Shown: one piece after another, positions 6,386-39,775 of the stretch
Numbering within the stretch: position 1 is the stretch's first letter
Layout: every line of letters starts with the position of its first letter
DNA from: an alpha proteobacterium HIMB59
GTDB lineage: Bacteria; Pseudomonadota; Alphaproteobacteria; HIMB59
NCBI GenBank assembly: GCA_000299115.1
Contig: CP003801.1
Coordinates: 1,240,001 to 1,304,000 of the forward strand
Direction: 5' to 3'
Length of the DNA: 64,000 bases
Notes under the pieces: generated by a model
Seen by the model: only the letters and a program-made list of their open reading frames with translations
Databases searched by the model: none
What the model was told of the DNA's origin: nothing
Translations under genes and position numbers: made by a program

Positions 6386-6404
6386 CAGACTAATCGAATG
6401 TGGA

Positions 6405-6426: not shown

Positions 6427-6437
6427 ATGAAGATTTA

Positions 6438-22223: not shown

Positions 22224-22446
22224 AGTAATCCTCTTTTCTCATCAATATTTTTCTTAACCATTTTCCAACAAGAACAATGAAAACAAAGCTAACGAAACCA
22301 AATAAGGCTGGGAATCCATATATCTCTTCTAGGGCAAAATATGCATGACGATGAAATGTAAAATCAATTAAGACTAATAGAATTGATATAATAATTATAA
22401 TTCTGGTAAAGTGTTTTGCGAGTGTTTTCAAATTATTTTGGCTCAT
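22216..22446 (-). CDS. Small two-helix membrane protein of the Mrp operon, function unknown
   Basis: 76 residues with two hydrophobic helices (about residues 14-28 and 43-61) and a charged C-terminus (LRKILMRKEDYYD). I do not recognise the family. It lies inside the antiporter operon, overlapping the upstream paralogue by four bases and the downstream one by eight. It is therefore certainly co-translated with the complex and may be an accessory subunit or spacer between antiporter-like modules. It is not MrpC, F or G, all of which are present elsewhere in the operon. Confidence 0.7.
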   Translation of the reverse strand: MSQNNLKTLAKHFTRIIIIISILLVLIDFTFHRHAYFALEEIYGFPALFGFVSFVFIVLVGKWLRKILMRKEDYYD

Positions 22447-23894: not shown

Positions 23895-25384
23895 TTAGAC
23901 AACCCTCCAAATAAATTACTAGAAGCCATATTAGCAAGTTCTACAATCGGTGCAGAGAAAATTCCAAATATAATAATTGATATTGCAACTATCCAGAGCG
24001 GTATATAAATTGCTGGATCTTCAGAAACAGCCTCAGTCTTAATTGATGAGAACCATAAGCTTTCTACTATTTTCCAAAAATAAATTACAGCGAGAGCAGA
24101 ACTTATCGCTATAAGCGCAATCGTTATAAACATATGGTTGTAATAAAGAGCTTGAAATAAATAGAGCTTTGAAACAAATCCATTTGTAAGCGGAATACCT
24201 ATTAAAGAGACTCCACAAATCAATAACGCAAAAGATGTAATTGGATATTTTTGACCATATCCATTAATAGAAGACAAAGTTACTCTATCTTGGGAGGAAA
24301 TCGCAAAATACCCAATGGCCATAAAAAGACCTCCCTTAATTAAGGCATGATTGAAAATATGAATAAATCCAGCGGTAATGCCGCTTTGGTCATTCATACT
24401 AAAAGCAAGAGTAATATAGCCAATTTGGGCGATAGAAGAATATGCAAGCAGTTTTTTTATATCATCCTGATAGATCGCAATGATCGTGCCTACAAAGATA
24501 GCTGTGACTGATAAAGGCATCAAAACATAATCTAAAAATATAATTAAATAGTGATCATAGAATGTGAAAACTTCATAAATTAGACGAACAAAAAAATACA
24601 AAATAGCTTTCGTTGCCAAAGCGGCAAAAAGAGTTGAAACGGCCGATGGGGCATAACTATAAGCAGGAGGAAGCCATAAATGGAGAGGGAAAACTGCTGA
24701 TTTAACCATGAGACCGATAAGCATAAAAGACATTCCTGCAAATATCGCTAATTGACCAGTTGAATATTGAGAAAGTTGAATAACTAAGTCAGACATATTC
24801 AAAGTACCAGTCATTGAATAGGCAAAGCCAACACCGATTACATAAAAAGTTGCTCCAATCGCTCCTATAATTAAATAATTGAAAGCAGCTAAGAGTGCTT
24901 TTCTATTCATTCCCGCACCTAAAGCAATTAAAGATATTGATGATAGAGCTGAGATTTCTAAAAATACAAAAAGATTAAAAATATCATTAGTCAGAATAAT
25001 ACCGTTTAAACTTGCTACGGCCAGAAGCCAAAGTGAATATGCTTTCCCACTATCCTCAGGATGTATTTCAGAAAGAAAAATTTTTCTAGAATAAAAAGTA
25101 GTTATTAAAACAAAACTCGAGAAAATAATCTGTAATCCGATATTTATACCATCAATTTTAAATGCTATACCCCAAGGCGGCTGCCAATTTCCAAATTCAT
25201 ACAATATTACTCCTGATATTTGAACCATTGAAAGAAGTTCAAAAGAAATGAAAAGATGAACAACAAGAGTTATCATTGAAATTATCCATGGCCATTTAGA
25301 AGAAGGCATAAAAGCAATGATCGCAGATACAATTAATGGAAGAACTACAACTAAAGCAGGGGCGTCATCAATCAAAAAATTCAT
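23891..25384 (-). CDS. mrpD: Mrp complex antiporter-like membrane subunit (first MrpD-type copy)
   Basis: 497 residues with 13-14 predicted helices and a Proton_antipo_M domain. It has the glutamate helix NLFVFLEISALSSISLIALG, the lysine helix MLIGLMVKSAVFPLHLWLP and YQDDIKKLLAYSSIAQIGYITLA. This copy directly follows mrpC and is the best positional match to canonical MrpD. It would form one of the ion-translocating half-channels in the inner membrane. It overlaps the next gene by four bases. Confidence 0.9.
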   Translation of the reverse strand: MNFLIDDAPALVVVLPLIVSAIIAFMPSSKWPWIISMITLVVHLFISFELLSMVQISGVILYEFGNWQPPWGIAFKIDGINIGLQIIFSSFVLITTFYSRKIFLSEIHPEDSGKAYSLWLLAVASLNGIILTNDIFNLFVFLEISALSSISLIALGAGMNRKALLAAFNYLIIGAIGATFYVIGVGFAYSMTGTLNMSDLVIQLSQYSTGQLAIFAGMSFMLIGLMVKSAVFPLHLWLPPAYSYAPSAVSTLFAALATKAILYFFVRLIYEVFTFYDHYLIIFLDYVLMPLSVTAIFVGTIIAIYQDDIKKLLAYSSIAQIGYITLAFSMNDQSGITAGFIHIFNHALIKGGLFMAIGYFAISSQDRVTLSSINGYGQKYPITSFALLICGVSLIGIPLTNGFVSKLYLFQALYYNHMFITIALIAISSALAVIYFWKIVESLWFSSIKTEAVSEDPAIYIPLWIVAISIIIFGIFSAPIVELANMASSNLFGGLSN

Positions 25385-25386
25385 TT

Positions 25387-25749
25387 TTATCTCTCTGACT
25401 TGAGCTCCTCTGCTTCAATCTCTTTTTCTTCAATTGTGTTATAGTTTTTATAAATCTGTAGCACGAGAGCTAGTCCTAAGGCTGAAGTCGCAACCCCGAC
25501 CACAATAGCAGTAAGTATTAAAACGTGTGGAAGTGGATTTGAATATATAGCTTCAACTTTCATTAAAATTGGAGCTGTTCCATCAATGATTTTTGCAAGA
25601 GAAACAAAAAAAACAAATACAGAAGTTTGAAAAATGGCGAGACCAACAATTTTTTTTATATAATTTTGACTAGTAATAATGATAAATAAACCACCTACCA
25701 TCAGCAAAATAAAAGCAAAGTGGTTCCAGAAATATAAAAAATCAGTCAT
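25387..25749 (-). CDS. mrpC: Mrp antiporter subunit C (NuoK-like)
   Basis: About 120 residues with three helices. The NuoK-type features are the third-helix run PLPHVLILTAIVVGVATSALGLALVL and the earlier FQTSVFVFFVSLAKI. I start it at the ATG at 25749 (MTDFLYFWNHFAF), seven codons inside the longest frame: GGTGAT precedes it, the length matches other MrpC proteins, and the overlap with mrpB falls to eight bases. It is the homologue of complex I NuoK, contributing a glutamate or polar half-channel. Confidence 0.88.
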   Translation of the reverse strand: MTDFLYFWNHFAFILLMVGGLFIIITSQNYIKKIVGLAIFQTSVFVFFVSLAKIIDGTAPILMKVEAIYSNPLPHVLILTAIVVGVATSALGLALVLQIYKNYNTIEEKEIEAEELKSER

Positions 25750-26179
25750 TGCTATCACCAAATGAAGCAAAGGAGTGGTAAAGAGCTATCATTACAGTAG
25801 CAACAGTTATACCTACTCCAAGTTCAACAAGTATAATTCCTAGATGTTGTCCGCCAGAGGGATCAGAAGATAAGACGTTATAATCTAAATATTTTCCATT
25901 TAGAAATAATGAAATGACTCCAACACCAGCATACAAAAGAACACCTACACACATCAAATACCTGTTTATTTTAACTGGAACCAAGGTCTCACCATTTTTT
26001 AATCCAAAAATCATTGAGTATAAAATGAATGCAGCTGCAATGATTACCCCAGCCTGAAACCCTCCTCCAGGTCCATAATCACCATGAAATTGAACATACA
26101 ATCCAAAAATAATAATTGGCGCAAATAAAATTCTGCTGACAATACTAAAAATAGGACTAGATGATATTTTTTCTTTCAT
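25742..26179 (-). CDS. mrpB: Mrp antiporter subunit B
   Basis: 145 residues with the MnhB signature near the N-terminus: RILFAPIIIFGLYVQFHGDYGPGGGFQAGVI read in segments, especially HGDYGPGGGFQAG at about 29-41. Four membrane helices are predicted. It follows the MrpA C-terminal-like gene with a one-base overlap and precedes mrpC. MrpB is essential for assembly and cation transport in characterised Mrp complexes. Confidence 0.9.
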   Translation of the reverse strand: MKEKISSSPIFSIVSRILFAPIIIFGLYVQFHGDYGPGGGFQAGVIIAAAFILYSMIFGLKNGETLVPVKINRYLMCVGVLLYAGVGVISLFLNGKYLDYNVLSSDPSGGQHLGIILVELGVGITVATVMIALYHSFASFGDSND

Positions 26180-26742
26180 TATTTTTTTAATTTCTTTTTA
26201 AATTTTGTTTTTCTATTAAGAGTATTGCCCGTTAAAAGTGCGATTACACCCAACCCAGCTGTAAATATAACTACAGTTTCTCCTAAAGTATCAAAACCTC
26301 TATAGCTCGCTAAAATATTAGTAACTACATTGGGGATATGAAAAAATGATTCGCTCTCTTTTATGTATTCAGGAGTAACATGTAAATGAATCGGGGCATT
26401 GGGATCACCAAGTAGAGGGAGATTGGCGATTATGACCATTAAAACAATCACAATACATACAGCAATAAGGATACTCGGATATAAATTAACTAAGGTATTT
26501 TTTTTTCCTTCTGGCAATTTAGCTACCGCCATGACCATCAAGATAGTGGAAATTCCCGAACCAACTGCAGCTTCAGTAAAAGCAACATCAACAGCATCTA
26601 AATTTACATAGATAGCGGCACAAACAAGAGTAAACGCTCCTGTTAATGCGACTATTCCAATCAAAGAAGTACTTTTGAAAATAAAAAAAGTTGTTATCAA
26701 AAGAATTGAAATGAGAAAAAAATTAATTAAGAGAAAATTCAT
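26179..26742 (-). CDS. MrpA C-terminal-like subunit (MbhD/MbhE-type, DUF4040)
   Basis: 187 residues. The N-terminal half has the DUF4040/MbhD signature DAVDVAFTEAAVGSGISTILM at about residues 49-69. The C-terminal half has the MbhE-like LASYRGFDTLGETVVIFTAG segment at about 143-162. In canonical Mrp these pieces form the C-terminal end of the large MrpA. Here they stand as an independent gene, as in archaeal Mbh/Mrp modules. The acidic residues of the first motif lie in the central ion path of the complex. It overlaps mrpG by four bases. Confidence 0.85.
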   Translation of the reverse strand: MNFLLINFFLISILLITTFFIFKSTSLIGIVALTGAFTLVCAAIYVNLDAVDVAFTEAAVGSGISTILMVMAVAKLPEGKKNTLVNLYPSILIAVCIVIVLMVIIANLPLLGDPNAPIHLHVTPEYIKESESFFHIPNVVTNILASYRGFDTLGETVVIFTAGLGVIALLTGNTLNRKTKFKKKLKK

Positions 26743-27053
26743 TTTTTTTTAATTTTTGCCTTTGGTTTTAGTCCAGACTCATAAGCAAAAAGAGAAATTG
26801 CATGACTAGATATTGGACTAGTGAATAATAAAAATAATGGAATAAGTAAAAGTTTAAAACTCACTAGCGTGAATCCTGAATAAAGAACAAGTGAGAGAAC
26901 TACAAAACCAGATCCTAAAGTATCAATTAAACCTGCAGCATGAATTCTACTAAAAACATCTGGTAATTTGATTAAACCTAAACTTCCTGAAAAAATAAAA
27001 AAAGAACCTATAGCCAGTGAAATCATCGATAAGATATTGATAAAGTTATCCAT
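26739..27053 (-). CDS. mrpG: Mrp antiporter subunit G
   Basis: 104 residues with three helices and the MnhG pattern SLGLIKLPDVFSRIHAAGLIDTLGSGFVVLSLVL at about 24-57, including the conserved RIHA(A) motif. It overlaps mrpF by eight bases and the MrpA C-terminal-like gene by four. A small structural subunit of the cation/proton antiporter. Confidence 0.92.
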   Translation of the reverse strand: MDNFINILSMISLAIGSFFIFSGSLGLIKLPDVFSRIHAAGLIDTLGSGFVVLSLVLYSGFTLVSFKLLLIPLFLLFTSPISSHAISLFAYESGLKPKAKIKKK

Positions 27054-27312
27054 TAAATTTTTTTCCTTTTATTTTGTAAAACTTAAGAATAGCGATGGTC
27101 CCAAGAAAATTTAATAAAACATACATCAATGAAATATCTACAAACTCTGGTCTTTGAAAAGCAAACCCATGGACAGCAATTCCAAGGGCTATAATTGTAC
27201 CGATACTGGAAATAGATAAAATCCTATCAAATGGAGTTGGGCCTTTAATGGCTCTTATAATGCATAGGATAATCGCCAATGCCAGAATAGTCAGAGCAGC
27301 AAAAAAAATCAT
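27046..27312 (-). CDS. mrpF: Mrp antiporter subunit F
   Basis: 88 residues, three helices, with the MnhF signature IRAIKGPTPFDRILSISSIGTI at about 19-40 (GPTPxDRIL) and a C-terminal FLGTIAILKFYK. It overlaps mrpE by four bases and mrpG by eight. In MrpF the conserved aspartate of this motif is required for activity in studied members. Confidence 0.92.
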   Translation of the reverse strand: MIFFAALTILALAIILCIIRAIKGPTPFDRILSISSIGTIIALGIAVHGFAFQRPEFVDISLMYVLLNFLGTIAILKFYKIKGKKFNG

Positions 27313-27803
27313 TTATCAAGTCCTGAAATTAATCGATCCATTTCGCCAGTTTGTAAATCTTCAGACAACTCCTTACTCAAAGCGTGAATAAGTAAATCAT
27401 TTTTTTCTACTTCAATTGTAACGGTTCCGGGTGTCAAAGTGATTGCATTGGCATAATTAGCTATACCAGTTGAATTTTTTTGTGATGCTTTGATCTTAAT
27501 TAACTCTGGAGAAGGTTTATTGTTCCAAATTATTTTTGTTGTAGTAATACCAGACTTAAATATCTCTTTAACCAGCCAGAGCCAATAAAAGGGCAAACGT
27601 AATAAAAGCTTTAATGGAAGAGCATCATTATCTAAAGCTTTTGCCCTCAAAGACATCCAACTCACAAATAAAACGCTAACTAAACCAAAAAATAATAATA
27701 AGGGCTTTAAATATCCTGAGAGAACGTACCAAAGTGCAAAAAGCACTAAGAAGTAAACTAGTATAGATAAAAACTTAACCGAATTTATTGTTTTATTAGC
27801 CAC
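27309..27803 (-). CDS. mrpE: Mrp antiporter subunit E
   Basis: 164 residues. Two N-terminal helices are followed by the MnhE hallmarks LPFYWLWLVKEIFKSGI and YANAITLTPGTVTIEV, then a cytoplasmic C-terminal tail. It is the first gene of the antiporter operon, in the order E-F-G-A'-B-C-D-D'-x-D''. Its ATG lies only nine bases after the stop codon of the formyltransferase-like gene on the same strand, so no separate promoter is evident and read-through from the catabolic cluster is likely. Confidence 0.92.
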   Translation of the reverse strand: MANKTINSVKFLSILVYFLVLFALWYVLSGYLKPLLLFFGLVSVLFVSWMSLRAKALDNDALPLKLLLRLPFYWLWLVKEIFKSGITTTKIIWNNKPSPELIKIKASQKNSTGIANYANAITLTPGTVTIEVEKNDLLIHALSKELSEDLQTGEMDRLISGLDK

Positions 27804-27812: not shown

Positions 27813-28730
27813 TTATGAGAATAAATCGCCCTCTGTAAACACTGCTGTGTTCATGTCTTTCACGTAAAGTTTTCCTTGATCTGATTTAAATCTTGAAACT
27901 TCAATGAAACCACCTTTGACAGCAATACGAACGTTTTCAGCATTGATGGAAATAATTTGCCCGGGGAAGTGTTCTGCACTTTGCTCATCAATAAATTTGG
28001 TATCGACAAAAGTAAATTCATCTCCCATAAATTCAGCCCAAGCGCCGGGTTGTGGGTTACAACCTCTGATCAAATTATAGACTTCTCTACCTGGTTTTTT
28101 CCAATCTATTCTTGCATCCGCTTTTTTACACCATGACTCATAAGTAGCTTTAGATTCATCTTGAGTAATTCGGGGAGCATTTCCAGCAGCAATCATATCT
28201 GCAGCTTCAACACAAGCATCCACACCTAATGGGAAAATCTTTGAGAAATAAACATCACCAAGAGTATCATCAGGTCCAATTTCAACTTCTTTTTGAAGTA
28301 ATATCTCGCCTTCATCTAAACCATCGTTTGGGTAAAAGATTGTTAAACCTGTCTTCTCGGAGCCCCAGATGATCGGCCAGTTAATAGAACTGGGACCTCT
28401 GTGCAAGGGAAGCAAAGACGGATGAAAGCAAATTGAGCCATGTTTTGGAATATCGCGAGCAGCCTCAGGAACAAATATAATTACATAGGCCATCACACAT
28501 AAGTCTGCGTCATGAGACTTGATCTGATCTAAGACTTCTTGATCTTTGAAGTTTGAAGGTTGAAATACAGGAAGACCTACGCTTTGAGCATATTCCTTTA
28601 CAGGATCTACCGGCTTACCCTCTTTGTCTGGTGCGCAGTAAACAGCGACTACTTCATGATCAGTTCCAGTGTGAAATTTTTCTAAAGCACTCTTTCCAAA
28701 TGCTTGTTGTCCCATCAGTATAATTTTCAT
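27813..28730 (-). CDS. Formyltransferase-fold protein resembling the hydrolase domain of 10-formyl-THF dehydrogenase
   Basis: 305 residues. It starts MKIILMGQQAFGKSALEKF, and the core PKHGSICFHPSLLPLHRG (residues 96-112) with DGLDEGEILLQKE (136-148) gives catalytic His103 and Asp139. Their spacing of 36 matches that recalled for the N-terminal hydrolase of ALDH1L1. Methionyl-tRNA formyltransferases have Asn two residues before the His; here that place is Cys101. A C-terminal formyltransferase-C-like region (WKKPGREVYNLIRGCNPQPGAW) is also present. Expected chemistry is transfer or hydrolysis of the formyl group of 10-formyl-THF. Its operon with frc and a TPP enzyme suggests a role in disposing of formyl units. 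It is unlikely to be Fmt itself. Confidence 0.72.
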   Translation of the reverse strand: MKIILMGQQAFGKSALEKFHTGTDHEVVAVYCAPDKEGKPVDPVKEYAQSVGLPVFQPSNFKDQEVLDQIKSHDADLCVMAYVIIFVPEAARDIPKHGSICFHPSLLPLHRGPSSINWPIIWGSEKTGLTIFYPNDGLDEGEILLQKEVEIGPDDTLGDVYFSKIFPLGVDACVEAADMIAAGNAPRITQDESKATYESWCKKADARIDWKKPGREVYNLIRGCNPQPGAWAEFMGDEFTFVDTKFIDEQSAEHFPGQIISINAENVRIAVKGGFIEVSRFKSDQGKLYVKDMNTAVFTEGDLFS

Positions 28731-28753
28731 TTTTATTTTCTCCCTCTATAGAT

Positions 28754-30001
28754 TTATACAGCTCCAGCTTCTCTAACTGCTTTAATTTCCTCTTCGCTCA
28801 TATTACAAAATTCTTTAAGAATTTCATCAGTATGCTCACCTAATAAAGGCGATCTTTTGACTACCGCAGGAGAGTCAGATAATTTAATTGGATTGCCAAC
28901 TGTTAAATACTTTCCTCTCACAGGATGATCAACTTCGACAACAGTTCCTGTTTCTCTAAGTCCTGGGTCTTCTGCAATTTCTTTTAGAGACAGAATAGGA
29001 CCAACAGGGATATCTAAAGGATTACAAATCTCCATCACTTCAAATTTTGTTTTGGTCTTTGTCCATGCCTCAATAGTATCAAAAATTTCATTCAATCGAG
29101 GAAGTCGAGCTGGTGGGGTTGAATAATTTTCATCTTCTTTCCATTCTGGCTTACCAATCACATCACACACTTTTTCCCAAACGGCAGCTTGGGTAATAAA
29201 ATATGTATATGCGTTTGGATCAGTTTCCCAACCCTTACATTTTAAAATTCTACCAGGTTGTCCGCCACCCGAGTCATTTCCCGCACGTGGTGTTGAGTCA
29301 CCAAAAGGAATATTTTCACCAAATTGTGAGTACTCTTTTAAAGGCCCTCTCTCCAATCTTTGCTGATCACGAAGTTTAACTCTGCATAGATTAAGAACGC
29401 CGTCTTGCATAGCGGCAGATACTTTCTGACCCTTGCCTGATTTCTCTCGATGAAAAAGCGCAGTAACTATTCCAAGGGCTAAATGAAGACCTGTTCCACT
29501 ATCACCGATTTGGGCACCAGTAACCATAGGTACCTCACCTAACATACCTGTAGTTGAAGCTGATCCTCCAGCGCATTGAGCAACATTTTCATAAACTTTA
29601 CATTCCTCATATTTCCCTGGTCCAAATCCTTTTACAGAAGCATAAATCATTCTAGGGTTAATCTCTTGGATCTTCTCCCAAGTAAAACCCATACGGTCTA
29701 AAGCTCCAGGTGCAAAGTTCTCAACCATTACATCACATTCCTTAATTAATTGAGTAAAGATTTTCGCTCCCTCAGGTTTTTTAGGATTAAGAGTAATACT
29801 TCGTTTGTTGGAGTTTAGCATTGTAAAATAAAGGCTATCTGCTTCTGGGATATCCCTTAGCTGTCCTCGAGTAGCGTCTCCTACTCCTGGACGTTCAACT
29901 TTTACAACGTCAGCGCCAAACCATGCTAACAGCTGAGTGCATGTTGGTCCGGACTGGACATGAGTCATGTCCAGTACCTTTACACCTTTTAAAGCTTCCA
30001 T
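28754..30001 (-). CDS. frc: Family III CoA-transferase, formyl-CoA:oxalate CoA-transferase-like
   Basis: 415 residues from the ATG at 30001, which lies seven bases after the stop of the TPP-enzyme gene; the frame is open 20 codons further, but that part overlaps the neighbour. The sequence follows Frc closely: [20 protein letters not shown], the segment [24 protein letters not shown] with Tyr137, and catalytic Asp167 in IGDSGTGLH. The glycine loop GGGQPG at 245-250 and [13 protein letters not shown] follow. Frc moves CoA from formyl-CoA (or succinyl-CoA in some members) to oxalate through an aspartyl-CoA thioester. Oxalate is the likeliest acceptor, although related acids cannot be excluded. 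Confidence 0.82.
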
Positions 30002-30008
30002 TTTTGAA

Positions 30009-31685
30009 TTATTTGTACATAGTCTGGTTTTTTGTACCAGGTGCAAATTCTTCTTTATCAACCCAGATGTTCACGATTGCAGGGATACCTGACTTAACCG
30101 CTTCTCTTGCTCTTTGAAGTGCTGGTTGAATGTCTTTGGCTTCTCTAACAGCTTCACCGTGACCACCAAGTATTTTAGCAAATTCGTCAAAGTTAACATC
30201 GCCAAGAATATTACCAACATTACCTTTTTCTTCACCATACTTCATGATCTGACCAAAACGAATTTGGTTTTGAGCTGAGTTATTTCCGATAACAGTAAGA
30301 ACTGGGGCTTTGTGTCTGACAAATGCTTCAAAGTCCATACCAGTCATTGAGAAGGCGCCATCTCCACAATAAAGTAGTACTTCTTTTTCAGGAGCCGCTA
30401 TCTTTGCTGCAAGGGCATACGGTACGCCTACGCCTAATGTTCCTAATGGGCCTGGATCCATCCATGCACCAGGCTGTCTTGGCTGAACTGCTTGTGCACT
30501 GATAGTAACAACGTCACCGCCATCTCCAATATAAATTGTGTCATCATTAAGGAATTGGTTTAACTCCCAAGCTACTCTGTATGGGCTAATTGGTGATTTG
30601 TCTGTTGTAAAAGTAGGCATTAACTTCTCAAGTGCCGCCTCTTCACCAGCTCTTAATTCATTAAACCAGTCAGATCTGTCTTTTTTAGAACCAGCCTCTG
30701 AAATAGCTTTCAGTGTAGTTCCAATATGACCAACAAGACCTAAAGAGATATCTCTATTTTTACCGACAGTTCTATAATCCATGTCAATTTGGATAACTGT
30801 AGCGTTAGGATTTAATCTTTTTCCGTAACCCATTCTGAAGTCAAAAGGAGTTCCCACAATGATAATACAATCAGATTTAGTAAAAGCATTTCTTCTTGTT
30901 CTATGGAAATGATGTGGATCGCCAGGAGGTAATGAACCACGAGCAGAACCGTTTAAGTATGCAGGGATATCCATGTTTCTCACAAAATCAACTGCATCTT
31001 GAGTTGATTGACTAGTCCAAACTTGTTGACCTAAAAGAATACAAGGTCTTTCAGCTTTTGAAATAATGTCAGCAGCTTTTTGAACATCAACAGGATCGGC
31101 AAGAGTTTTAGAGGAGGCACTGTATTTTCCTGTTTCTGGTACAACAGCTTTACTTAAAGGAATAGATGAATCTAAGATATCTCTTGGGATCTCAAGGAAA
31201 GATGGTCCAAAAGAACCATTTCTAGTTTCTCTGAATGCCATAGAGACCATATCAGCACATCTTTCAGTAGACATTACTGTAGCTGCGAATTTTGTAATAG
31301 GTTGCATCATATCCACGTGTGGGAGATCTTGAAGTGATCCCATCTTATGTTGAGTTAGTGAACTTTGACCACCGATTAATAACATTGGGATTTCAGCTCT
31401 AAATGCATTAGCAACGCCAGTTATAGCATGGGTAGTTCCAGGCCCTGCTGTTACAACAGCACATCCCGGCTTTCCTGTCATTCTTGCATAACCATCTGCT
31501 GCATGTGAAGCCACTTCTTCGTGTCTTACGTCGATGATTTTAATACCTTCGTTTAAACAACCGTTATAAATGTCAATAATATGACCACCACATAGGGTGT
31601 AAATTACTTCAACGCCCTCAGCTTTGAGAGCTTTTGCTACTAGCTCACCGCCAGTAATCATTTGTTCGTTAGTTCCTGTAGACAT
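30009..31685 (-). CDS. TPP-dependent enzyme of the acetolactate synthase / oxalyl-CoA decarboxylase / 2-hydroxyacyl-CoA lyase superfamily
   Basis: 558 residues with the full three-domain ThDP architecture. The pyrimidine-binding domain has the activating Glu56 ([17 protein letters not shown]). A central domain follows. The pyrophosphate domain has [13 protein letters not shown] starting at 441 and ending VIGNN at 469. Its pairing with frc suggests oxalyl-CoA decarboxylase or 2-hydroxyacyl-CoA lyase, both of which make formyl-CoA. However, residues recalled as CoA/ADP contacts in oxalyl-CoA decarboxylase look replaced ([11 protein letters not shown] where GRPGG is expected; LGQQ where LGKG is expected). 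The C-terminal tail [11 protein letters not shown] is of the lid type. AGGAGAGAGG precedes the ATG, and an operator palindrome lies directly upstream. Confidence 0.8.
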
Positions 31686-31702
31686 ATGTACCTCTCTCCT
31701 GG

Positions 31703-31719
31703 TGGTATAATGTATACCA
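31703..31719. promoter_or_regulatory. Palindromic operator, probable GntR site 1
   Basis: TGGTATAATGTATACCA is an inverted repeat with seven-base arms around ATG. It sits between the regulator gene and the TPP-enzyme gene, with its near edge 17 bases upstream of the TPP start. On the minus strand it overlaps a possible -10 (TATACA) with TTTGCA 16 bases upstream. The 14-base core GGTATAATGTATAC recurs at 35718-35731, in the tctC/qor divergent region. The GTATAC centre matches the kind of site bound by FCD-type GntR proteins. Confidence 0.65.
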
Positions 31720-31747
31720 GAAAAATTAAGGATGCAAAGAAATTTGG

Positions 31748-32407
31748 CTAGGTTTTGATACTTTCTTGTATCTTTTCAACAAGCGTTAAAGCATGGTTTT
31801 TCAATAGTTTTTCAGCTTTTGCAGGTTGCCCTGCGACAAGAGATTTGACTATATCATTGTGCTCATCAATAGATCTGATGGACCGATTGGACTCTATTAT
31901 GAACTTTTTTCTAAGATATTGGAGGTGTATTAATTGAGATTCTAGTATCTCTCCCATCAGTCTCACTTTAGTCAATTTCATAATATGTTCATGAAATTTA
32001 ATATTATCATTAGAATAGTTATCAAGGTCAGATAAGACGTTTGACTTAGAATACTGACAATATTTATTTAATACTTCGATTTCTTCTTTTGACGAATTTT
32101 GAATAATCAAATGTGCTGCGTATCCCTCCAAACCAGCCCAAACAGTTACAATATCTATTAATTCCTTCTTAGACTTCCTATGAACAAACACACCTCTTCT
32201 TGGGACTGTCTTTACTATACCCTCTTGTTCTAGTCTTGCTACAGCCTCTCTTATTGGAGTACGGCTGACTCCTAACTTCTCGGAGAGTTGTCGTTCATCT
32301 AAATGAAAATCTGTCTCTTTCAGATATATATTTAAAGATAGGATATATTTTTTTAAAGCCTCATAAACTTTATTCTTTAAATTAACGGGTCCAATTTTTT
32401 GGATCAT
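31748..32407 (-). CDS. GntR-family transcriptional regulator, FCD (FadR/VanR) type
   Basis: 219 residues. A winged-helix domain occupies about 10-75, with the recognition segment LSEKLGVSRTPIREAVARLEQEGIV and the wing VPRRGVFV. A helical FCD ligand domain follows with the D-x4-H, H and H metal-binding pattern (DNIKFHEHI, DEHNDIV, LLKNHALTL). Members sense carboxylic acids and usually repress neighbouring catabolic genes. It lies in the middle of the transporter/catabolic operon, ten bases after tctA and 62 before the TPP enzyme. Two matching palindromes nearby are its probable sites (inference). The ligand is presumably the transported acid or its CoA product. Confidence 0.88.
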   Translation of the reverse strand: MIQKIGPVNLKNKVYEALKKYILSLNIYLKETDFHLDERQLSEKLGVSRTPIREAVARLEQEGIVKTVPRRGVFVHRKSKKELIDIVTVWAGLEGYAAHLIIQNSSKEEIEVLNKYCQYSKSNVLSDLDNYSNDNIKFHEHIMKLTKVRLMGEILESQLIHLQYLRKKFIIESNRSIRSIDEHNDIVKSLVAGQPAKAEKLLKNHALTLVEKIQESIKT

Positions 32408-32416
32408 TAATTTATT

Positions 32417-33931
32417 TTAAGCTTTTTTAAAAAATTTTCTATAAATAGGTCCAAAAGCAGGCATGACAAGTAAAACAATGGCTATGTACATAATCACTGC
32501 AGCTATTGGCTTAGAGCCAAAATCAAAAAATATTCCCATACTTCCGTCTGATAAAATTAAGGATTGTCTCATTGCTTTCTCAGCCAACGGACCTAAAACA
32601 ATCGACAAGACAGCTGGAGCTACAGGATAGTCTAATTTTCTTAGTATATATCCTCCAAATCCAAACAATAACATTAACCAAACATCATGAAGGCTTTGCG
32701 TTGGTGCGTAACCACCTGTAACACAGAGAACAAATATCACAGGAGCTAATATAGCAAAAGGAATTCTGAGAACCATTAAGAAGGCTGGAATTAAAGCAAT
32801 GTTTAACACAAGAGTAAAAAAATTTGCAATATAAAGACTTCCAATTAATCCCCATACAAATTCTGGCTGTTGTGTAAACAATAAAGGTCCTGGAGTTAAG
32901 CCCCAAAGTATCATCCCTCCCAATAGAATAGCTGTAGTTGGAGATCCAGGAATACCAAGAGTTAACATTGGTAACATACTTCCAGTACTTGCAGAATTAT
33001 TCGCGCACTCTGGGGCAACTACACCTGCGGGAACCCCTGATCCAAATTCCTTTGAATTTTTAGAGAGTTGTTTTGTTATACCGTAAGACATCAAAGAAGC
33101 TGGTGTTGCGCCTGCTGCTGGCAAAATACCCACAAAAAAACCTAAAAAAGAACCAATATTCATTGCCATAATAGTCTTTTTTAATGCAGCGAAGGCTCTT
33201 CCGACTTCTTTCATATTAACTGAGAGTTTAGACATTTGAACTTTTCCTTTAGTTTCTTCGAGTGTCCATAGCATCTCACCTATTCCATAAATACCTATAG
33301 CCAGAACTAAGAAATTTATTCCATGGAGAAAACCTGGGATACCAAAAAATATTAAGCGCGGTTTACCAGTAATTAAGTCCAATCCTATTGTTGATAAAAC
33401 TAATCCAATTAAAATAGAGAAAATTGTTTTAGGAATATCATCGCCACCTAAGCCCACAAATGTTGCAAAAGCCATGACCATTAAAGCAAAAGTTTCAGGA
33501 GCATTAAATCTCAAGGCTACTTCAGCAAGTGGTGGCGCGAATAAAGTAAATAAAATTACAGACACAGTTCCACCTACAAACGAGCCTACGGCAGCTGCTG
33601 TGAGGGCAGTCATCGCCTCACCCTTTACAGCCAAAGGTCTTCCATCAAAAACTGTGGCTACGGCAGTTGACGCTCCTGGAATGCCTAGCATCACAGAACT
33701 GATTGCACCTCCATACATTGCTCCATAATAAACCGCAGCTAAAAAAATAATTGCAGCTGTAGGGGGCACAATAAAAGTAATTGGAATTAAAATAGCAACA
33801 CCATTAACTGAACCCAGGCCTGGCATAGCTCCAACAAATAAGCCTATGAGACATCCAAATATCAAAAGAGCTAAATTTAATAATTCAAAGGATGTAGCCA
33901 TTCCTTGAAGAAGTAATGCAAAAGTTTCCAT
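32417..33931 (-). CDS. tctA: Tripartite tricarboxylate transporter large membrane subunit (TctA)
   Basis: 504 residues with about 12 helices and the TctA hallmarks: GCLIGLFVGAMPGLGSVNG near residue 26, YGGAISSVMLGIPGASTAVATVFDG near 73-97, and a second repeat with FLGFFVGILPAAGATPASLMSYG and SMLPMLTLGIPGSPTTAILLGGM. The PGxG/GIPG loops form the inverted-repeat substrate site. It imports a carboxylate with the ion gradient, receiving substrate from the periplasmic TctC. It lies in the order tctC-tctB-tctA-gntR. Confidence 0.93.
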   Translation of the reverse strand: METFALLLQGMATSFELLNLALLIFGCLIGLFVGAMPGLGSVNGVAILIPITFIVPPTAAIIFLAAVYYGAMYGGAISSVMLGIPGASTAVATVFDGRPLAVKGEAMTALTAAAVGSFVGGTVSVILFTLFAPPLAEVALRFNAPETFALMVMAFATFVGLGGDDIPKTIFSILIGLVLSTIGLDLITGKPRLIFFGIPGFLHGINFLVLAIGIYGIGEMLWTLEETKGKVQMSKLSVNMKEVGRAFAALKKTIMAMNIGSFLGFFVGILPAAGATPASLMSYGITKQLSKNSKEFGSGVPAGVVAPECANNSASTGSMLPMLTLGIPGSPTTAILLGGMILWGLTPGPLLFTQQPEFVWGLIGSLYIANFFTLVLNIALIPAFLMVLRIPFAILAPVIFVLCVTGGYAPTQSLHDVWLMLLFGFGGYILRKLDYPVAPAVLSIVLGPLAEKAMRQSLILSDGSMGIFFDFGSKPIAAVIMYIAIVLLVMPAFGPIYRKFFKKA

Positions 33932-33957
33932 ATGTTTTATTTACCCTTTCTCATAAA

Positions 33958-34572
33958 CTATTTTATAAATCTGCTAGCTAGAAACGCCAAGAGAGATGGC
34001 GAAAGTACAGTGGCAATTATATATATCCAAATCATAAATAGTGAACTTGAACCATACATAACATCGTAAACTGGATAAAATAAAGGCTCAGATATTCCTT
34101 GAGGCAAAGGAATTTTTAACAACCATTCAAAAAATAAGAAAGTCAAAATAGGGGTTGTTATTGAAAAATTAAAAATAAAAGAATTACTCTTATCACTAAA
34201 ATATCTTAAATAGAAAGCTAAGAAACAAATTAAAGAAAAATAAATTCCTAAATATCCGATAGCAAAAACTAAAACTACAAGTGAAATAATAGTTACCCAT
34301 ACAAACTTAAAGGCCTCAGGATCAACAAAAGGCTCGTGGTTTGTGGATTGTGGAGATTTTTTTAAAATAAACTTAGCAATGGTTATTACAGTACAAATGA
34401 ACATTCCTAATGAAAGGTAGAAGGGAAGAAACCCTGCTCCCATATTTTCTTCTGCGCTCCATGTAATTCTGTTTTGTGCGCTTTTAAACATAAGAGCGAG
34501 TGAGCACAGTGCTAAAACTACAGCGACAGTAATTTCTGCCCTTCTAACTGAAAATTTAGTATCTGTGCTCAT
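33958..34572 (-). CDS. tctB: Tripartite tricarboxylate transporter small membrane subunit (TctB)
   Basis: 204 residues with four to five predicted helices and the DUF1468 pattern: a first helix ending in FKSAQNRITW, then GAGFLPFYLSLGMFICTV, and a C-terminal FEWLLKIPLPQG. The last motif (FExLLxIPLPxG) is typical of TctB. It is slightly longer than the usual 150-190 residues. It lies between tctC and tctA with short spacers and acts as the auxiliary membrane component. Confidence 0.88.
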   Translation of the reverse strand: MSTDTKFSVRRAEITVAVVLALCSLALMFKSAQNRITWSAEENMGAGFLPFYLSLGMFICTVITIAKFILKKSPQSTNHEPFVDPEAFKFVWVTIISLVVLVFAIGYLGIYFSLICFLAFYLRYFSDKSNSFIFNFSITTPILTFLFFEWLLKIPLPQGISEPLFYPVYDVMYGSSSLFMIWIYIIATVLSPSLLAFLASRFIK

Positions 34573-34594
34573 TATTCGCTCCTAATTTATTTTA

Positions 34595-35572
34595 TTAGTT
34601 AAAGTTCTTAATGATCTCGCCGTGCTTCTCATACTCAACTGCTAAGAAGTCTTTAAGACCATATCCTTCCAACCAACTCATTAACTTACCGTCGTCAATG
34701 TTGAAAGTTTGGAACTCATCATCCCAGTAAACAGTGTGTAAAAGACCTGTGTAGTACTTTTCCACTTCTGCATCAATACCAGCTGGAGCCATAAATGCTC
34801 TCATCATGTAGTATTCAAGATCAGGATAACCTAATTCATAAGAAGAAGGTACATCTGGGAATGCTGGGTTTCTCTCAGGAGTCATCATAACTAAAGCCTT
34901 AGAGTCTCCAGACTGATAGAATCCCATCTGCTCGGAAGGGTTGTTTAATGTGAAATCTGACTCACCGCCAACTAGACCTTTTGCAACAGCGCCACCACCG
35001 TCATACGGGACGTACTTTGCATCAAATCCAAACTGGCCTCTCATCATACCAAGAAGTAATTCGTCTTCTGACATACTTCCTGTACCACCAGCAACAAGGT
35101 TACCCTGTTTTGCAAGTGCAATGAAGTCATCAAAAGTTTCTACACCTTGAGTATTCTTACCTTCAGTTGCAATCCATACTAGGAAAGTATCTGTGATAAG
35201 TCTTGCTAATGGAGTGAAGTCATTGAAGAAGTCAATTCCTAACTCAGGTTGGTTAACAGGTGTAGTTAGAACGTTGTTAAGAGTAATGATCAGCGTGTGC
35301 TCATCACCAGCTTTTTTCTTAACATATGTCATTGCCTCACCACCAGAACCACCTTTTTTGTTGATTGGAATCACTGGCTTAGATGCGTAGTCATTTTTCT
35401 CAATAACACCTTGTACTAGTCGAGCGATCTCGTCAGCTCCTCCACCTTGACCAGCTGGGATAATAAGTTCAATAGGCTTCTTTGGAGAAAAAGGCTTCGC
35501 AGAAGACACTGAACTAACAGCTACAAGTGAAAGAGAAACTAGAACTAGACCGATTTTTTTGATTAAAGTCAT
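34595..35572 (-). CDS. tctC: Periplasmic solute-binding protein of a tripartite tricarboxylate transporter (TctC/Bug)
   Basis: 325 residues. A signal peptide (MTLIKKIGLVLVSLSLVAVSSVSSA) is followed by the Bug/TctC fold: KPIELIIPAGQGGGADEIARLV with the glycine-rich carboxylate loop, INKKGGSGGEAMTYV, and VPYDGGGAVAKGLVGGESDF. AGGAGG lies upstream of the ATG. As first gene of the transporter/catabolic operon it has the palindromic operator 147 bases upstream. The ligand cannot be read from sequence; the metabolic neighbours suggest oxalate or a hydroxy or dicarboxylic acid. Its codons look less extreme in AT than its neighbours, consistent with high expression. Confidence 0.92.
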   Translation of the reverse strand: MTLIKKIGLVLVSLSLVAVSSVSSAKPFSPKKPIELIIPAGQGGGADEIARLVQGVIEKNDYASKPVIPINKKGGSGGEAMTYVKKKAGDEHTLIITLNNVLTTPVNQPELGIDFFNDFTPLARLITDTFLVWIATEGKNTQGVETFDDFIALAKQGNLVAGGTGSMSEDELLLGMMRGQFGFDAKYVPYDGGGAVAKGLVGGESDFTLNNPSEQMGFYQSGDSKALVMMTPERNPAFPDVPSSYELGYPDLEYYMMRAFMAPAGIDAEVEKYYTGLLHTVYWDDEFQTFNIDDGKLMSWLEGYGLKDFLAVEYEKHGEIIKNFN

Positions 35573-35718
35573 ACTATTATTCCTCCTATAGAATGAATAT
35601 TCTTTTAAAGATTAACCTATTTAATAAAAATTAGAAAGATAAATAAAAAAAAATTTCTAAATTCATAAAAAAAACCTTATTTTTAGCTATATTTTTTAAC
35701 TTGTTGTTAAGATCTTTG

Positions 35719-35738
35719 GTATAATGTATACATTATAC
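35719..35738. promoter_or_regulatory. Perfect 20-bp palindrome in the tctC/qor divergent promoter, probable GntR site 2
   Basis: GTATAATGTATACATTATAC is its own exact reverse complement and contains a consensus -10 box TATAAT on each strand. Its first half, with the preceding G, repeats the core of the operator at 31703-31719. A repressor bound here would block transcription of tctCBA-gntR in one direction and of qor-sucC-sucD in the other. No strong -35 partner stands out on either strand. The rest of the stretch between 35573 and 35750 is AT-rich leader with the tctC ribosome-binding site. Confidence 0.7.
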
Positions 35739-35750: not shown

Positions 35751-36725
35751 ATGAAATTTATAAACTGTAAAGATAATAAATTATTTATCGATAATAGTAG
35801 TTTACCAGACCCTACAGAGAATCAAATACAAATAGAAATTTTTTCAACTAGTGTTAACAGAGCCGACGTGCTTCAAAGAAAAGGACACTACCCTCCCCCG
35901 AAGGGAGAGAGTGAGATTATTGGCCTAGAGTGTGCTGGGATTGTCTCCAAGATTGGTCCAAACTCGAGTAAATTTAAAGTTGGAGATAAAGTCTGTGCTA
36001 TTTTAGGTGGCGGTGGATATGCCGAATTAGTGAATGTTGATGAAAGGCAAGTCATGCCCATTCCGTCAAATATCAGTATGTTAGAGGCAGGATCTCTTCC
36101 AGAAACTATTCTTACTGTTTATGAAAATATTTTTAATATTTCTGAATTTAAAAATAATGAGGTTGTTTTAATTCATGGTGGAAGTAGTGGGATTGGCACA
36201 ACAGCTATTTCTCTTTTGAAAAATTTTACTGATCAGATTTATGTCACTGCCGGCTCTAAAGAAAAATGTGATCAATGTTTACAACTTGGAGCCAAAGCGG
36301 CAATCAATTATAAAGACGAAGATTTTGAGCAGTATTTCATTGATCAAAAAATAAAAGTTGATGTTATTTTAGATATGGTTGGTGGATCCTATTTAAAGAA
36401 AAATTTAAAAATATTAAATCATAAAGGGCGACTCACATATATAGCTGCTCTCGAAAGTATTAAAGCTGAAGCTAACCTCCTATATATAATGACCAAACAA
36501 TTAAAAGTTTCTGGATCTACACTTAGATCAAGATCACCTGAGGAAAAAGGAAAAATAGTCAATCAAGTTGTTGAACATATTTGGCCTTTAATTGAACAGG
36601 GAAAATACAAACCAACAATTTTCCAATCTTTCAATATGGAAGATGTAAATTTGGCTCATGAGTTAATGGAATCATCCAGCCATATTGGAAAAATCTTATT
36701 AGATATTAAAGGAGGACAAAAATGA
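35751..36725 (+). CDS. NAD(P)H:quinone oxidoreductase-like protein (PIG3/Qor family of MDR)
   Basis: 324 residues from the ATG at 35751; the in-frame ATG at 35724 lies inside the operator palindrome and is unlikely. It is a zinc-free medium-chain dehydrogenase: [19 protein letters not shown] and [10 protein letters not shown] in the catalytic domain, [14 protein letters not shown] for NADPH binding, and [13 protein letters not shown] as in PIG3-type quinone reductases. The true substrate is unknown. It is the first gene of qor-sucC-sucD, overlapping sucC by four bases (ATGA). Its divergent promoter shares the palindrome with tctC, tying it to the catabolic cluster. Confidence 0.82.
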
Positions 36726-37909
36726 ACTTACATGAGTACCAAGCAAAAATATTGCTTAAAAATAATGATGTAAGAGTTTTAGCTGGTAACCCAGTTTTAA
36801 ACGACAACGAGATAGACTCTGCTGTTGACTCTATCCAGACGCCGGTAATGGTTGTGAAATCACAAATTCATGCTGGGGGAAGAGGTGCAGGAAAATTTAA
36901 AGATAGCGGCGATGATAAAGGTGGAGTGCGAGTTTGTTTTTCAAAAGAAGAAGCAAAAGAAAATGCAAAGAAAATGCTTGGTAAAACACTTGTAACAAAA
37001 CAGACTGGACCGGATGGTAAAGTCGTTAATCGTCTTTATATCGAAGAGGGCTGCGATATTAAAAAAGAATACTATCTCAGTATGTTAGTAGATCGTTCAA
37101 CCTCCTCCATCTCTATTATAGCTTCAACTGAAGGTGGAATGGAAATTGAAGAAGTAGCTGAAAAAGAACCTGAAAAAATTATCACTGTAAACGTTCCTGG
37201 TGATCAAACTTTAGATCAAGCTAGCTTAGATCAATTAGTTCAAGGTTTAGAAATTACTTCTGAACAATCTGGAGATTTTTGTGATCAGATTCAAAAAATT
37301 TATTCCAGCTTTTTATCAGCAGATGCTTCTCTAGTTGAGGTAAACCCATTTGTATTAACTGGTGAGGGAAACTTCCTTGCACTTGATGCAAAGGTATCGA
37401 TCGATGACAATGCTTTATACAAACACAAAGATATTGCCGAGATGCGAGATGAGACAGAAGAAGATCCAGCTGAGATAGAAGCATCTAAACATGAGTTAAA
37501 TTATGTAAAACTAGATGGGAGTATCGGATGTATGGTTAATGGCGCAGGTCTTGCTATGGGTACCATGGATATTATCCAACTTCATGGTGGAAGCCCAGCA
37601 AACTTCTTAGATGTTGGTGGTGGAGCTACAAAAGAAAGAGTTGCTAAAGCCTTTTCAATCATTCTTCAAGATCCAAATGTTAAAGTCATTCTGGTAAACA
37701 TTTTTGGTGGCATTATGAAATGCGATATCATAGCTGAAGGTGTTGTTGCTGCCGCTAAAGAACTATCCATTCAGGTTCCTTTAGTTGTTAGACTTGAGGG
37801 AACAAACGTAGATCTTGGAAAAGAAATTCTTAATAAATCAGGTCTAGCTATTATTTCAGCAGATAATTTAGAAGACGCGGCTCAAAAGGCTGTCGGTGCT
37901 TTGAGTTAA
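36722..37909 (+). CDS. sucC: Succinyl-CoA synthetase beta subunit (ADP/GDP-forming)
   Basis: 395 residues with an ATP-grasp N-terminal domain ([44 protein letters not shown]). The C-terminal CoA-ligase domain has [18 protein letters not shown] and [17 protein letters not shown]. The insert GDDKGGVR and [18 protein letters not shown] are as I recall for alphaproteobacterial SucC, rather than malate-CoA ligase MtkA. GGAGG precedes the ATG. It makes ATP or GTP from succinyl-CoA in the TCA cycle, or succinyl-CoA in reverse. Its separation from mdh/sucAB, and its place behind qor and the shared operator, are unusual. Confidence 0.93.
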
Positions 37910-37919
37910 AGGAGTAAAC

Positions 37920-38792
37920 ATGTCAGTATTAATTAATAAAGAAACAAAAGTAATTTGCCAGGGATTTACTGGTGCTCAAGGTACATTTCACTCAGAACAA
38001 GCAATTAAATATGGTACACAAATGGTTGGTGGTGTAACACCTAAAAAAGGCGGACAAGAGCATTTAGGTCTACCAGTATTTAACACCGTTAAAGAGGCGA
38101 AAGAAAATACTGAAGCTAACGCTACAGTAATCTATGTCCCTCCTCCATTTGCAGCTGGCGCTATTATTGAAGCTATTGATGCTCAAATGGAATTGATCGT
38201 ATGTATCACTGAGGGCGTTCCAGTTTTAGATATGATGCAGGTTAAGAGGAAGTTAGAAAATTCCAATTCAAGACTCATTGGTCCTAACTGCCCAGGTATC
38301 ATCACACCAGATGAATGTAAAATAGGTATTATGCCTGGTCATATTCATAAAAAAGGTAAAATTGGTGTTGTAAGTCGATCAGGAACCTTAACTTATGAGG
38401 CTGTGGCTCAAACCTCTGCAGTAGGACTTGGACAGTCTACATGTATTGGTATAGGTGGTGATCCTATTAATGGTACCAACTTTATCGACTGTTTAGACTT
38501 ATTTTTAAAAGACCCTGAAACCGAGGGAATTATTATGATTGGTGAGATTGGTGGAACAGCTGAAGAAGAAGCAGCAGAATTCATTAAGAACTCTTCTATC
38601 AAAAAACCTGTAGCTTCCTTTATTGCAGGTGCTAGTGCTCCTGCGGGTAAAAGAATGGGTCATGCTGGAGCTATAATATCTGGTGGAAAAGGAACTGCTG
38701 AGTCGAAGTTTAATGCGCTTGAAGATGCAGGAGTTCACATTTCCAAGTCACCAGCTAAATTAGGTGAAACTATCCAAAAGGCTTTAGGTTAA
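37920..38792 (+). CDS. sucD: Succinyl-CoA synthetase alpha subunit
   Basis: 290 residues, the usual SucD length. It has the CoA-binding Rossmann segment [17 protein letters not shown], the [19 protein letters not shown] segment and the phosphohistidine in MGHAGAII near residue 244. AAAGGAG precedes the ATG, 11 bases after sucC. It forms the heterotetramer or dimer with SucC, carrying the phosphoenzyme intermediate. Its stop codon is one base from the stop of the convergent reductase gene. Confidence 0.95.
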
Positions 38793-39774: not shown

Positions 39775-39775
39775 A

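Follow-up and report, generated by a model that had tools for sequence, protein, structure and literature searches.

What substrate a seven-gene cluster of the alpha proteobacterium HIMB59 handles, and through which reactions, is the question raised by this locus. The window, the whole 64-kb stretch of DNA analysed, carries these closely spaced genes on its minus strand at 27813-35572, all with reading frames open at the coordinates in Table 1. The order tctC-tctB-tctA-GntR-ThDP-Frc-FDH-like is broken by intergenic gaps of only 22, 26, 9, 62, 7 and 23 nt (taking 30001 as the first base of Frc), and because of these short gaps the genes look like one operon. An earlier note had described this set from the letters of the DNA; the set is real, with all ORFs and Pfam domains found. 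No conserved palindrome was seen upstream of tctC when ten aligned HIMB59-clade upstream regions were inspected by eye.

Table 1. Features of the locus, in window coordinates.
Feature	Coordinates	Strand	Basis or remark
TctC, tripartite tricarboxylate-type importer, predicted substrate-binding protein (oxalate proposed)	34595..35572	-	PF03401, 84.1 bits
TctB, small membrane subunit	33958..34572	-	PF07331
TctA, large membrane subunit	32417..33931	-	PF01970, 481.7 bits
GntR/FCD regulator	31748..32407	-	PF00392 + PF07729
ThDP enzyme (type A), a proposed oxalyl-CoA decarboxylase not orthologous to OXC	30009..31685	-	PF02776, PF00205, PF02775; OXC slot
Frc, formyl-CoA:oxalate CoA-transferase, 415 aa	28754..30001	-	CoA_transf_3; TIGR03253; start chosen: ATG 30001
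FDH-like protein, 305 aa, proposed formyl-CoA/tetrahydrofolate formyltransferase	27813..28730	-	Formyl_trans_N + Formyl_trans_C
Intergenic region 5' of tctC; operon promoter likely here	35573..35723	.	position only
sucC + sucD, divergent neighbours	36722..38792	+	possible CoA supply; module membership unsure

Proposed pathway and its core enzyme

The explanation that we favor, with a probability of roughly 55%, is an oxalate operon. TctCBA would import oxalate under the control of the GntR/FCD regulator, and Frc would move CoA from formyl-CoA onto oxalate to give oxalyl-CoA and formate. The ThDP enzyme, of a family here called type A, would then convert oxalyl-CoA to formyl-CoA and CO2, in the role of oxalyl-CoA decarboxylase (OXC) but without orthology to it, and the FDH-like protein would convert formyl-CoA and tetrahydrofolate (THF) to 10-formyl-THF and CoA, or catalyze the reverse. 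What is observed is the gene content, its conservation, the mutual exclusion and replacement in place of the decarboxylases, and the retention of residues; the substrates and reactions we infer throughout, most of all for the folate step and the direction in which it runs. The operon resembles the Frc-OXC oxalate pathway of E. coli (yfdW/yfdU) and Oxalobacter formigenes in its genuine Frc and in the proposed route from oxalate through oxalyl-CoA to formyl-CoA and CO2; it differs in having a ThDP enzyme only 25-27% identical in place of OXC, and in including the TctCBA importer and the FDH-like protein. What would be new is an oxalate route that uses a stand-in decarboxylase, together with a candidate gene for a formyl-CoA step to which two papers assign none.

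Frc passes the curated oxalate/formyl-CoA transferase family (TIGR03253, 699.8 bits; cut-off 504.2), and its top PDB match is E. coli YfdW (550 bits). In 65 of 80 named loci the FDH-like gene has Frc as a same-strand neighbour, at a median gap of 51 nt, and 55 of the loci have a GntR relative on the same strand; the association goes well past what chance would give. The earlier suggestion of a single catabolic unit around formyl-CoA is supported, and the neighbourhood check that the note had called for found the frc/ThDP/FDH-like triplet kept in relatives.

Type A and canonical OXC in the same slot

The two decarboxylase types are mutually exclusive. Of 35 Frc genomes in two genome samples, 15 possess type A and 19 possess OXC, while none has both and one has neither; among the 80 named loci the corresponding numbers are 31 and 26 (either in 57, both in 0). 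In the class sample, the Frc search returned 28 genomes at E <= 1e-120, 24 of them over the cut-off; G071 was added to the genome count (a split gene, 414.6 bits), and G067, G281 and G288 (442-447 bits) were left out. The Frc-like genes of G281, G288, G187 and G067 are 42-43% identical to the window Frc, and, apart from a weak Frc paralogue in L136, no further module gene among those queried adjoins them. The type A search of the same sample returned 20 genomes at E <= 1e-100, of which the 14 at >= 62% identity were counted and the six at 36-42% were left out.

Replacement in place is also observed. In L050, L052 and L053 the gene that separates GntR from Frc encodes canonical OXC (991-1003 bits, cut-off 739.4); no ThDP gene was seen at this position in L078 and L080. 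The trees and the ThDP alignment were made with HIMB59-clade near-copies left out; on the Frc tree the partner changes between type A and OXC at least 8 times, 5 of these changes being forced by well-supported branches, and the window Frc clusters with OXC-partnered rows (98). Sister pairs of modules have Frc proteins that are 86-90% identical, yet their decarboxylases are 26-27% identical. On the TctA tree, rows of type A and OXC modules are intermixed, with 8 type changes, and TctA identity is 58-70% in most modules, type A and OXC alike, and 45-48% in a few. For TctC, identity is 94-96% among HIMB59-clade loci whose flanks are intact and ~32-46% in most other modules.

Given the repeated replacement of type A and OXC by one another and an Frc over its cut-off, the most likely role of the operon is oxalate uptake followed by formyl-CoA production through a non-orthologous OXC. 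OXC takes this slot next to the same Frc and, usually, a TctA that is 60-70% identical, which favors oxalate over glycolate, lactate and 2-hydroxyisobutyrate. The cluster had been called unassigned in the earlier note; that label can probably be dropped, since replacement by canonical OXC points to oxalate. The shared slot, the mutual exclusion and the repeated swaps lend indirect support to the proposal that the type A enzyme is a non-orthologous oxalyl-CoA decarboxylase.

Type A scores below every cut-off among the 25 families listed, including canonical OXC (TIGR03254, 243.9 bits; cut-off 739.4), 2-hydroxyacyl-CoA lyase of the AcHACL type (NF058623, 355.6; cut-off 600) and acetolactate synthase (TIGR00118, 315.3; cut-off 538.35). 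The earlier note had named an ordinary acetolactate synthase as an outcome that would speak against its own proposal. This identity was rejected on the cut-offs and on the presence of a separate ilvB-like gene elsewhere in the genome, followed by an apparent small-subunit gene; the ThDP enzyme is thus not the biosynthetic one. By eye, the genome's other two ThDP matches are ilvB-like and iolD-like.

Residue comparison with OXC (O. formigenes numbering) finds the equivalent of E56 retained as E56 and, in all 30 type A rows, L118 and Q119 where OXC has Y120 and E121. Around Y483 and S553, near the oxalyl carboxylate, the alignment is gapped; the Tyr column corresponds to Ile475, and S553 is without a clear equivalent. 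Type A ends in an invariant C-terminal QTMYK. Comparison with AcHACL bears on a rival explanation, improbable in our judgment, in which a 2-hydroxy acid would be imported, Frc would activate this acid instead of oxalate, and the ThDP enzyme would act as a short-chain 2-hydroxyacyl-CoA lyase. AcHACL is the top PDB sequence match of type A, its L127, Q128, H44 and T88 are retained as L118, Q119, H35 and T79 (mapped by hand), and the AlphaFold2 model (pLDDT 79.2; residues 108-131 below 50) is predicted to have a helix where AcHACL carries E493. However, this catalytic glutamate corresponds by hand mapping to Ile475, invariant in 30 of 30 rows, the NF058623 score is far below its cut-off, and type A swaps repeatedly with OXC beside Frc proteins that are 86-90% identical. 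AcHACL is also accompanied by a CoA ligase, HCL, whose place is taken by Frc in the HIMB59 operon. Of the AcHACL contacts to CoA, R273 is retained as R264, R417 becomes Ala397 and R362 is lost (hand mapping); with the last two absent, the residues give no proof of CoA use by type A. The candidate families could not be told apart by fold: type A matched HACL/HACS, OXC and glyoxylate carboligase at Z 39.5 to 37.8, and the FDH-like protein matched Fmt, Nt-FDH and ArnA at Z 35.2 to 30.4. Folds were therefore not used to decide in either case.

The FDH-like protein

The best PDB matches of the FDH-like protein (AlphaFold2 pLDDT 92.7) are hydrolase domains of ALDH1L1, at 220 bits versus 133 for Fmt, and identity to this domain (Nt-FDH) is ~38% in a structure alignment. 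Residues H103, S105, D139 and Y197, equivalent to H106, S108, D142 and Y200 of ALDH1L1, are invariant in 101 of 101 rows; R111 (ALDH1L1 R114) is Arg in 96 and Lys in 5, and F86 is kept in 90. Retention of the folate-holding residues (Y197, F86 and R111) points to folate use. In contrast to full-length ALDH1L1, the protein stands alone, without the fused carrier or aldehyde dehydrogenase domain, and it has Cys at position 201 in 96 of 101 rows. At the Ile104 position (residue 101, two before the catalytic His) it has Cys in 59 rows, Gln in 42 and Asn in none, and the choice of Cys or Gln showed no link with decarboxylase type. All nine Fmt-like matches examined have Asn at this place; its absence and a TIGR00460 score of 165 bits (cut-off 201.5) led to the rejection of Fmt, and PurU was rejected at 22.7 bits (cut-off 285.95). 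The N-terminal domain of HypX has the same fold (Z about 20) at 17-18% identity; HypX, however, makes CO and carries a fused C-terminal enoyl-CoA hydratase-like domain that the FDH-like protein lacks.

The gene is nearly confined to Frc-bearing genomes. Over both samples, 22 of 24 genomes with the FDH-like protein also have Frc, half with each decarboxylase type; in the class sample Frc is found in 19 of 21 genomes with it and in 6 of 268 without it (Fisher p 1.4e-22, a value that is too small since the genomes are related). The two exceptions among the 21, G281 and G288, possess the FDH-like protein without a true Frc. In reciprocal fashion, 6 of 25 class-sample Frc genomes do without the FDH-like protein, and it is therefore dispensable for the pathway. 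It lies away from Frc in 10 of 20 class-sample neighbourhoods examined. Its same-strand neighbour is a formate-THF ligase gene in 42 of the 80 named loci and, in the class sample, in 7 of 20 loci; in the window genome this ligase is encoded elsewhere and not in the operon. Three FDH-like copies adjoin, by eye, a gene resembling pterin carbinolamine dehydratase.

The best reading of homology and gene neighbours is that the FDH-like protein may move formyl groups between CoA and THF. In the forward direction it would bring C1 units into folate without ATP cost, but this transfer would drain the CoA donor needed by Frc, which counts against it; in reverse, with formate-THF ligase, it would supply formyl-CoA to start and sustain the Frc cycle. 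Published work describes related chemistry: in ALDH1L1 the hydrolase domain hands the formyl group of folate over to a thiol of phosphopantetheine (PMC8748788), and HypX is proposed to pass it from 10-formyl-THF to CoA, in its authors' words without direct proof (PMC6802093).

Two rivals retain the oxalate operon and differ on this step. In the first, which we regard as unlikely, a thiol-assisted 10-formyl-THF hydrolase would release THF and formate, acting as a valve of the folate pool under a flood of formate. The closest solved relatives are indeed hydrolase domains; with 2-mercaptoethanol these free formate, and the isolated ALDH1L1 domain requires this thiol according to part of one report (PMC4388273); the catalytic residues are all kept, and some copies lie away from Frc, including the three beside the dehydratase-like gene. 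However, paired with the formate-THF ligase encoded next to it in so many loci, a hydrolase would set up a cycle that wastes ATP, and its tie to formyl-CoA enzymes would be left without explanation. The second, a folate-free formyl-CoA hydrolase (EC 3.1.2.10) yielding formate and CoA, is more doubtful still: it would fit the adjoining formyl-CoA enzymes and an activity for which bacteria are said to lack any known gene (in part of a recent survey, PMC10192776) and which is said still to await identification in plants (in part of PMC9090294), but the folate-holding residues are kept, and the thioester used by Frc would be wasted. We advance tentatively, at somewhat less than even odds, the joint proposal that the FDH-like protein joins the CoA and folate C1 pools as a dedicated formyl-CoA:tetrahydrofolate formyltransferase and that type A is a second, separately recruited and marine-widespread OXC family, hidden by its likeness to acetolactate synthase. 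The FDH-like protein is a concrete candidate for formyl-CoA handling outside Frc, and a direct link between formyl-CoA and folate would, we infer, matter for synthetic C1 metabolism.

Literature context and neighbouring genes

No description of the HIMB59 gene set was found in the titles and abstract beginnings of the best matches from the open-licence literature, nor in that literature any joint mention of oxalate, tripartite tricarboxylate and formyl-CoA transferase; the main texts of two HIMB59/AEGEAN-169 papers do not contain the word oxalate. The part of the recent survey cited above names oxc as the key gene of CoA-dependent routes of oxalate degradation (PMC10192776). Since the scores of type A modules fall well short of the cut-off for oxc, oxc-based surveys and ordinary annotation would miss them, the marine clade of the window included, and marine oxalate consumption may be underestimated.

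Next to the operon, the divergent SucC is over the succinate-CoA ligase cut-off (543.6 versus 370). Malate-CoA ligase was rejected for sucCD, its cut-off being missed by six of six SucC proteins compared. No second sucCD was found in the window genome, where SucD is a single copy. With HIMB59-clade near-copies left out, SucC and SucD are close to 16 of 62 other Frc loci.

Operon architecture and family assignment

The AEGEAN-169 group, to which HIMB59 belongs, was formerly SAR11 subclade V; the HIMB59 genome is a single contig of 1,410,127 bases. The earlier note had described one minus-strand unit, and seven genes with gaps of 7-62 nt indeed form it (see table), with family scans returning the families it had named: TctC, TctB, TctA, a GntR/FCD regulator, a ThDP enzyme, formyl-CoA:oxalate CoA-transferase (Frc) and a formyltransferase-fold protein (the formyl protein). 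Frc is the sole member of the seven to attain an NCBIfam cut-off (TIGR03253, 699.8 vs 504.2 bits; also PRK05398); among solved structures it matches E. coli YfdW best (550 bits). The ThDP enzyme falls under the cut-off of every family among the 25 listed of 51 matched (score/cut-off: PRK05858, 491/587; actinobacterial HACL, 355.6/600; acetolactate synthase, 315.3/538.35; canonical oxalyl-CoA decarboxylase, OXC, 243.9/739.4). The formyl protein scores higher with the ALDH1L1 hydrolase domain (220 bits) than with methionyl-tRNA formyltransferase (Fmt, 133 bits). The Mrp-like operon downstream could be co-transcribed with it.

Features and their coordinates (in the window unless a locus or genome is named)
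Feature	Coordinates	Strand	Remark
Operon, tctC to formyl protein	35572-27813	minus	7 genes; intergenic gaps 22, 26, 9, 62, 7, 23 nt
sucC + sucD	36722-38792	plus	ADP-forming acyl-CoA ligase; divergent neighbours of the operon
Mrp-type Na+/H+ antiporter operon (by eye)	20544-27803	minus	begins 9 nt downstream of formyl protein
Reductase and aminotransferase genes	38794-40936	minus	adjoining
Dimethylglycine dehydrogenase-like, glycine betaine-type ABC transporter, choline dehydrogenase-like genes (by eye)	1112-9133	minus	
Formate-THF ligase	85502-87169 (window genome)		away from operon
Pterin carbinolamine dehydratase-like gene (by eye)	L040:2443-2769		adjoins formyl protein
Type A copies and Frc genes	G439:C1:2351783-2373065		
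Formate dehydrogenase-type gene	L037:1935-6427		near module

Distribution and replacement of the ThDP enzyme

The window's ThDP enzyme and its orthologues (type A, at least 62% identical) occur in 14 of 289 alphaproteobacterial genomes (the class sample), a count that leaves out six weaker matches (36-42% identical). All are on a contig bearing Frc, less than 200 nt from it in 13 genomes and about 5 kb away in G228. OXC is found in 11 genomes, with Frc on the same contig in 10; the other, G127 (74% complete), yielded no Frc match. None of the 289 genomes possesses both type A and OXC. Another 200 genomes from the phylum made up a second sample, overlapping the first in G000, G283 and others; 10 of them have OXC, two (G000 and G439) type A and none both. 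Among the 35 Frc genomes of the joined samples, 15 have type A, 19 OXC, none both and one (G239) neither. In G439 there are two Frc genes and, roughly 16 kb from each other, two type A copies with equal scores. A pair of Frc genes is also present in several OXC genomes; in G420 the two lie in tandem, flanked by OXC and the formyl protein.

Named loci were the best 80 of at least 590 confirmed matches, ranked by similarity to the window formyl protein and therefore biased; type A is present in 31 of these 80, OXC in 26 and both in none. Loci L050, L052 and L053 exhibit the gene order of the window, but carry canonical OXC (991-1003 bits) as their ThDP gene. The neighbourhood check asked for earlier thus bears out the frc/ThDP/formyl-protein grouping, which recurs in relatives with either type A or OXC in the ThDP slot.

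A quick Frc tree without bootstrap (65 rows: 29 type A, 29 OXC and 7 assigned to neither type; L042 and L043 long-branched) requires at least eight type changes, five forced by well supported branches, and places the window Frc within an eight-row set (98), five of whose rows are type A and three OXC. Eight changes, six of them forced, are also needed on the TctA tree (43 rows, likewise quick and without bootstrap). In the sister pair L085/L118, Frc is 90%, the formyl protein 78%, GntR 70% and the decarboxylases 26% identical; L117/L106 and L075/L073 are similar pairs with the decarboxylase swapped. Identification of the acid as oxalate, and of type A as a substitute for OXC, rests chiefly on this repeated replacement in place. 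Judged from sequence, the operon is probably (about 0.85) one for oxalate, with a decarboxylase that is not an OXC orthologue.

The active sites of 30 type A rows were compared with those of 28 OXC rows. Both sets keep the ThDP glutamate, and Tyr120-Glu121 of OXC become Leu118-Gln119 in type A. The position of Glu493 in the 2-hydroxyacyl-CoA lyase AcHACL (hand-mapped, offset 11, with the E493A and E493S chains in support) is an invariant Ile475 in the 30 type A rows. Because PMC8760513 states that the lyase reaction requires E493-type proton transfer and decarboxylation does not, this loss fits a decarboxylase, an argument limited by acetolactate synthases, which also lack E493. Counting against the assignment are the AcHACL CoA contacts, since R417 is Ala397 in type A and R362 is lost, whereas R273 is retained as R264. 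The C-terminal APGT..QTMYK, invariant in type A, may be a lid.

The formyl protein and its candidate reaction

Formyl protein orthologues occur in 21 of the 289 class-sample genomes (weakest 295.7 bits, next match 141.5 bits), and all nine inspected weaker matches have the Fmt Asn. In the 20 neighbourhoods fetched besides that of the window genome, Frc adjoins the formyl protein in 10 and formate-THF (tetrahydrofolate) ligase in seven. Frc exceeds its cut-off in 24 class-sample genomes, or 25 with G071, where a 415-bit Frc fragment follows the type A gene. It is present in 19 of 21 genomes with the formyl protein versus 6 of 268 without; G281 and G288 have the formyl protein and only a 442-445-bit Frc relative, with no module neighbours beside it. 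The second sample has Frc in 12 of 200 genomes and the formyl protein in four, adjoining Frc in all four. In the joined samples the formyl protein is found in 24 genomes (11 with type A, 11 with OXC, two with neither). The p-values, 1.4e-22 for the class sample and 4.9e-9 computed on the joined samples, are too small, as related genomes are not independent. At L040, L051 and L097 a formyl protein without Frc is adjoined by a pterin carbinolamine dehydratase-like gene.

Among the best 80 of at least 590 matches, 65 have a same-strand Frc and 42 formate-THF ligase (gap at most 309 nt); four of the 15 without Frc have less than 500 bp of contig upstream. Alphaproteobacteria account for 62 of the 80 and Gammaproteobacteria for 10. 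Eleven are HIMB59-clade loci. The named loci nearest to the window, L054-L064 from uncultured Alphaproteobacteria/Pelagibacteraceae assemblies, have formyl proteins 90-97% identical. One assembly each is labelled SAR324, Nitrospira and Opitutia; these may be contaminated.

His103, Ser105, Asp139 and Tyr197 are invariant in all 101 aligned rows, which include near-copies and some genomes twice. Residue 111 is Arg in 96 rows, with Lys in the other 5; position 201 holds Cys in 96 rows and Phe in 5; and residue 101, Asn in Fmt, is Cys in 59, Gln in 42 and Asn in none.

CoA bears the same pantetheine thiol as the 4'-phosphopantetheine arm. The ALDH1L1 domain hands formyl to that arm (PMC8748788) and on its own requires 2-mercaptoethanol (PMC4388273), and formyl transfer from 10-formyl-THF to CoA was proposed for HypX without direct experimental results (PMC6802093). 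From the ALDH1L1 and HypX precedents and the shared thiol we infer that the formyl protein moves formyl groups between CoA and THF, and by this analogy the formyl protein is, at even odds, a candidate formyl-CoA/folate enzyme. The forward reaction, from formyl-CoA to THF, would supply C1 units for folate without ATP and would drain the CoA donor required by Frc; the reverse would, in combination with formate-THF ligase, prime the Frc cycle. Of 27 genomes tested for this ligase, 25 had a match, 24 of them above the cut-off. The dimethylglycine dehydrogenase-like gene and its neighbours are perhaps a second C1-yielding cluster of the window.

A possible CoA supply and other neighbours

With the HIMB59 clade left out, 16 of 62 Frc loci (L067, L093, L096, L100, L107, L120 and ten more) have SucC and SucD within the flanks fetched, often divergent as in the window, versus 1 of 25 loci without Frc; chance would give about 0.5 loci, assuming two copies per 4 Mb. 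SucD is single-copy in the window genome, and the pair therefore surely also serves the TCA cycle. Their proximity to Frc is a hint that oxalate may be activated by succinyl-CoA (EC 2.8.3.2); according to PMC10192776, this reaction has no assigned gene.

In the window, a ketopantoate reductase-like gene (NF005089) adjoins one for a BhcA-like aminotransferase, which scores 578 against a cut-off of 650. Near the module, the Frc-centred gene set, relatives of the reductase recur in five loci (L069, L070, L079, L085 and L120), and at L140 one adjoins type A and Frc together with glyoxylate carboligase. At L037 the alpha subunit of the formate dehydrogenase-type gene passes TIGR01591 (744.6 vs 666.25), and its neighbour subunit clusters with genes of eight more Frc loci.
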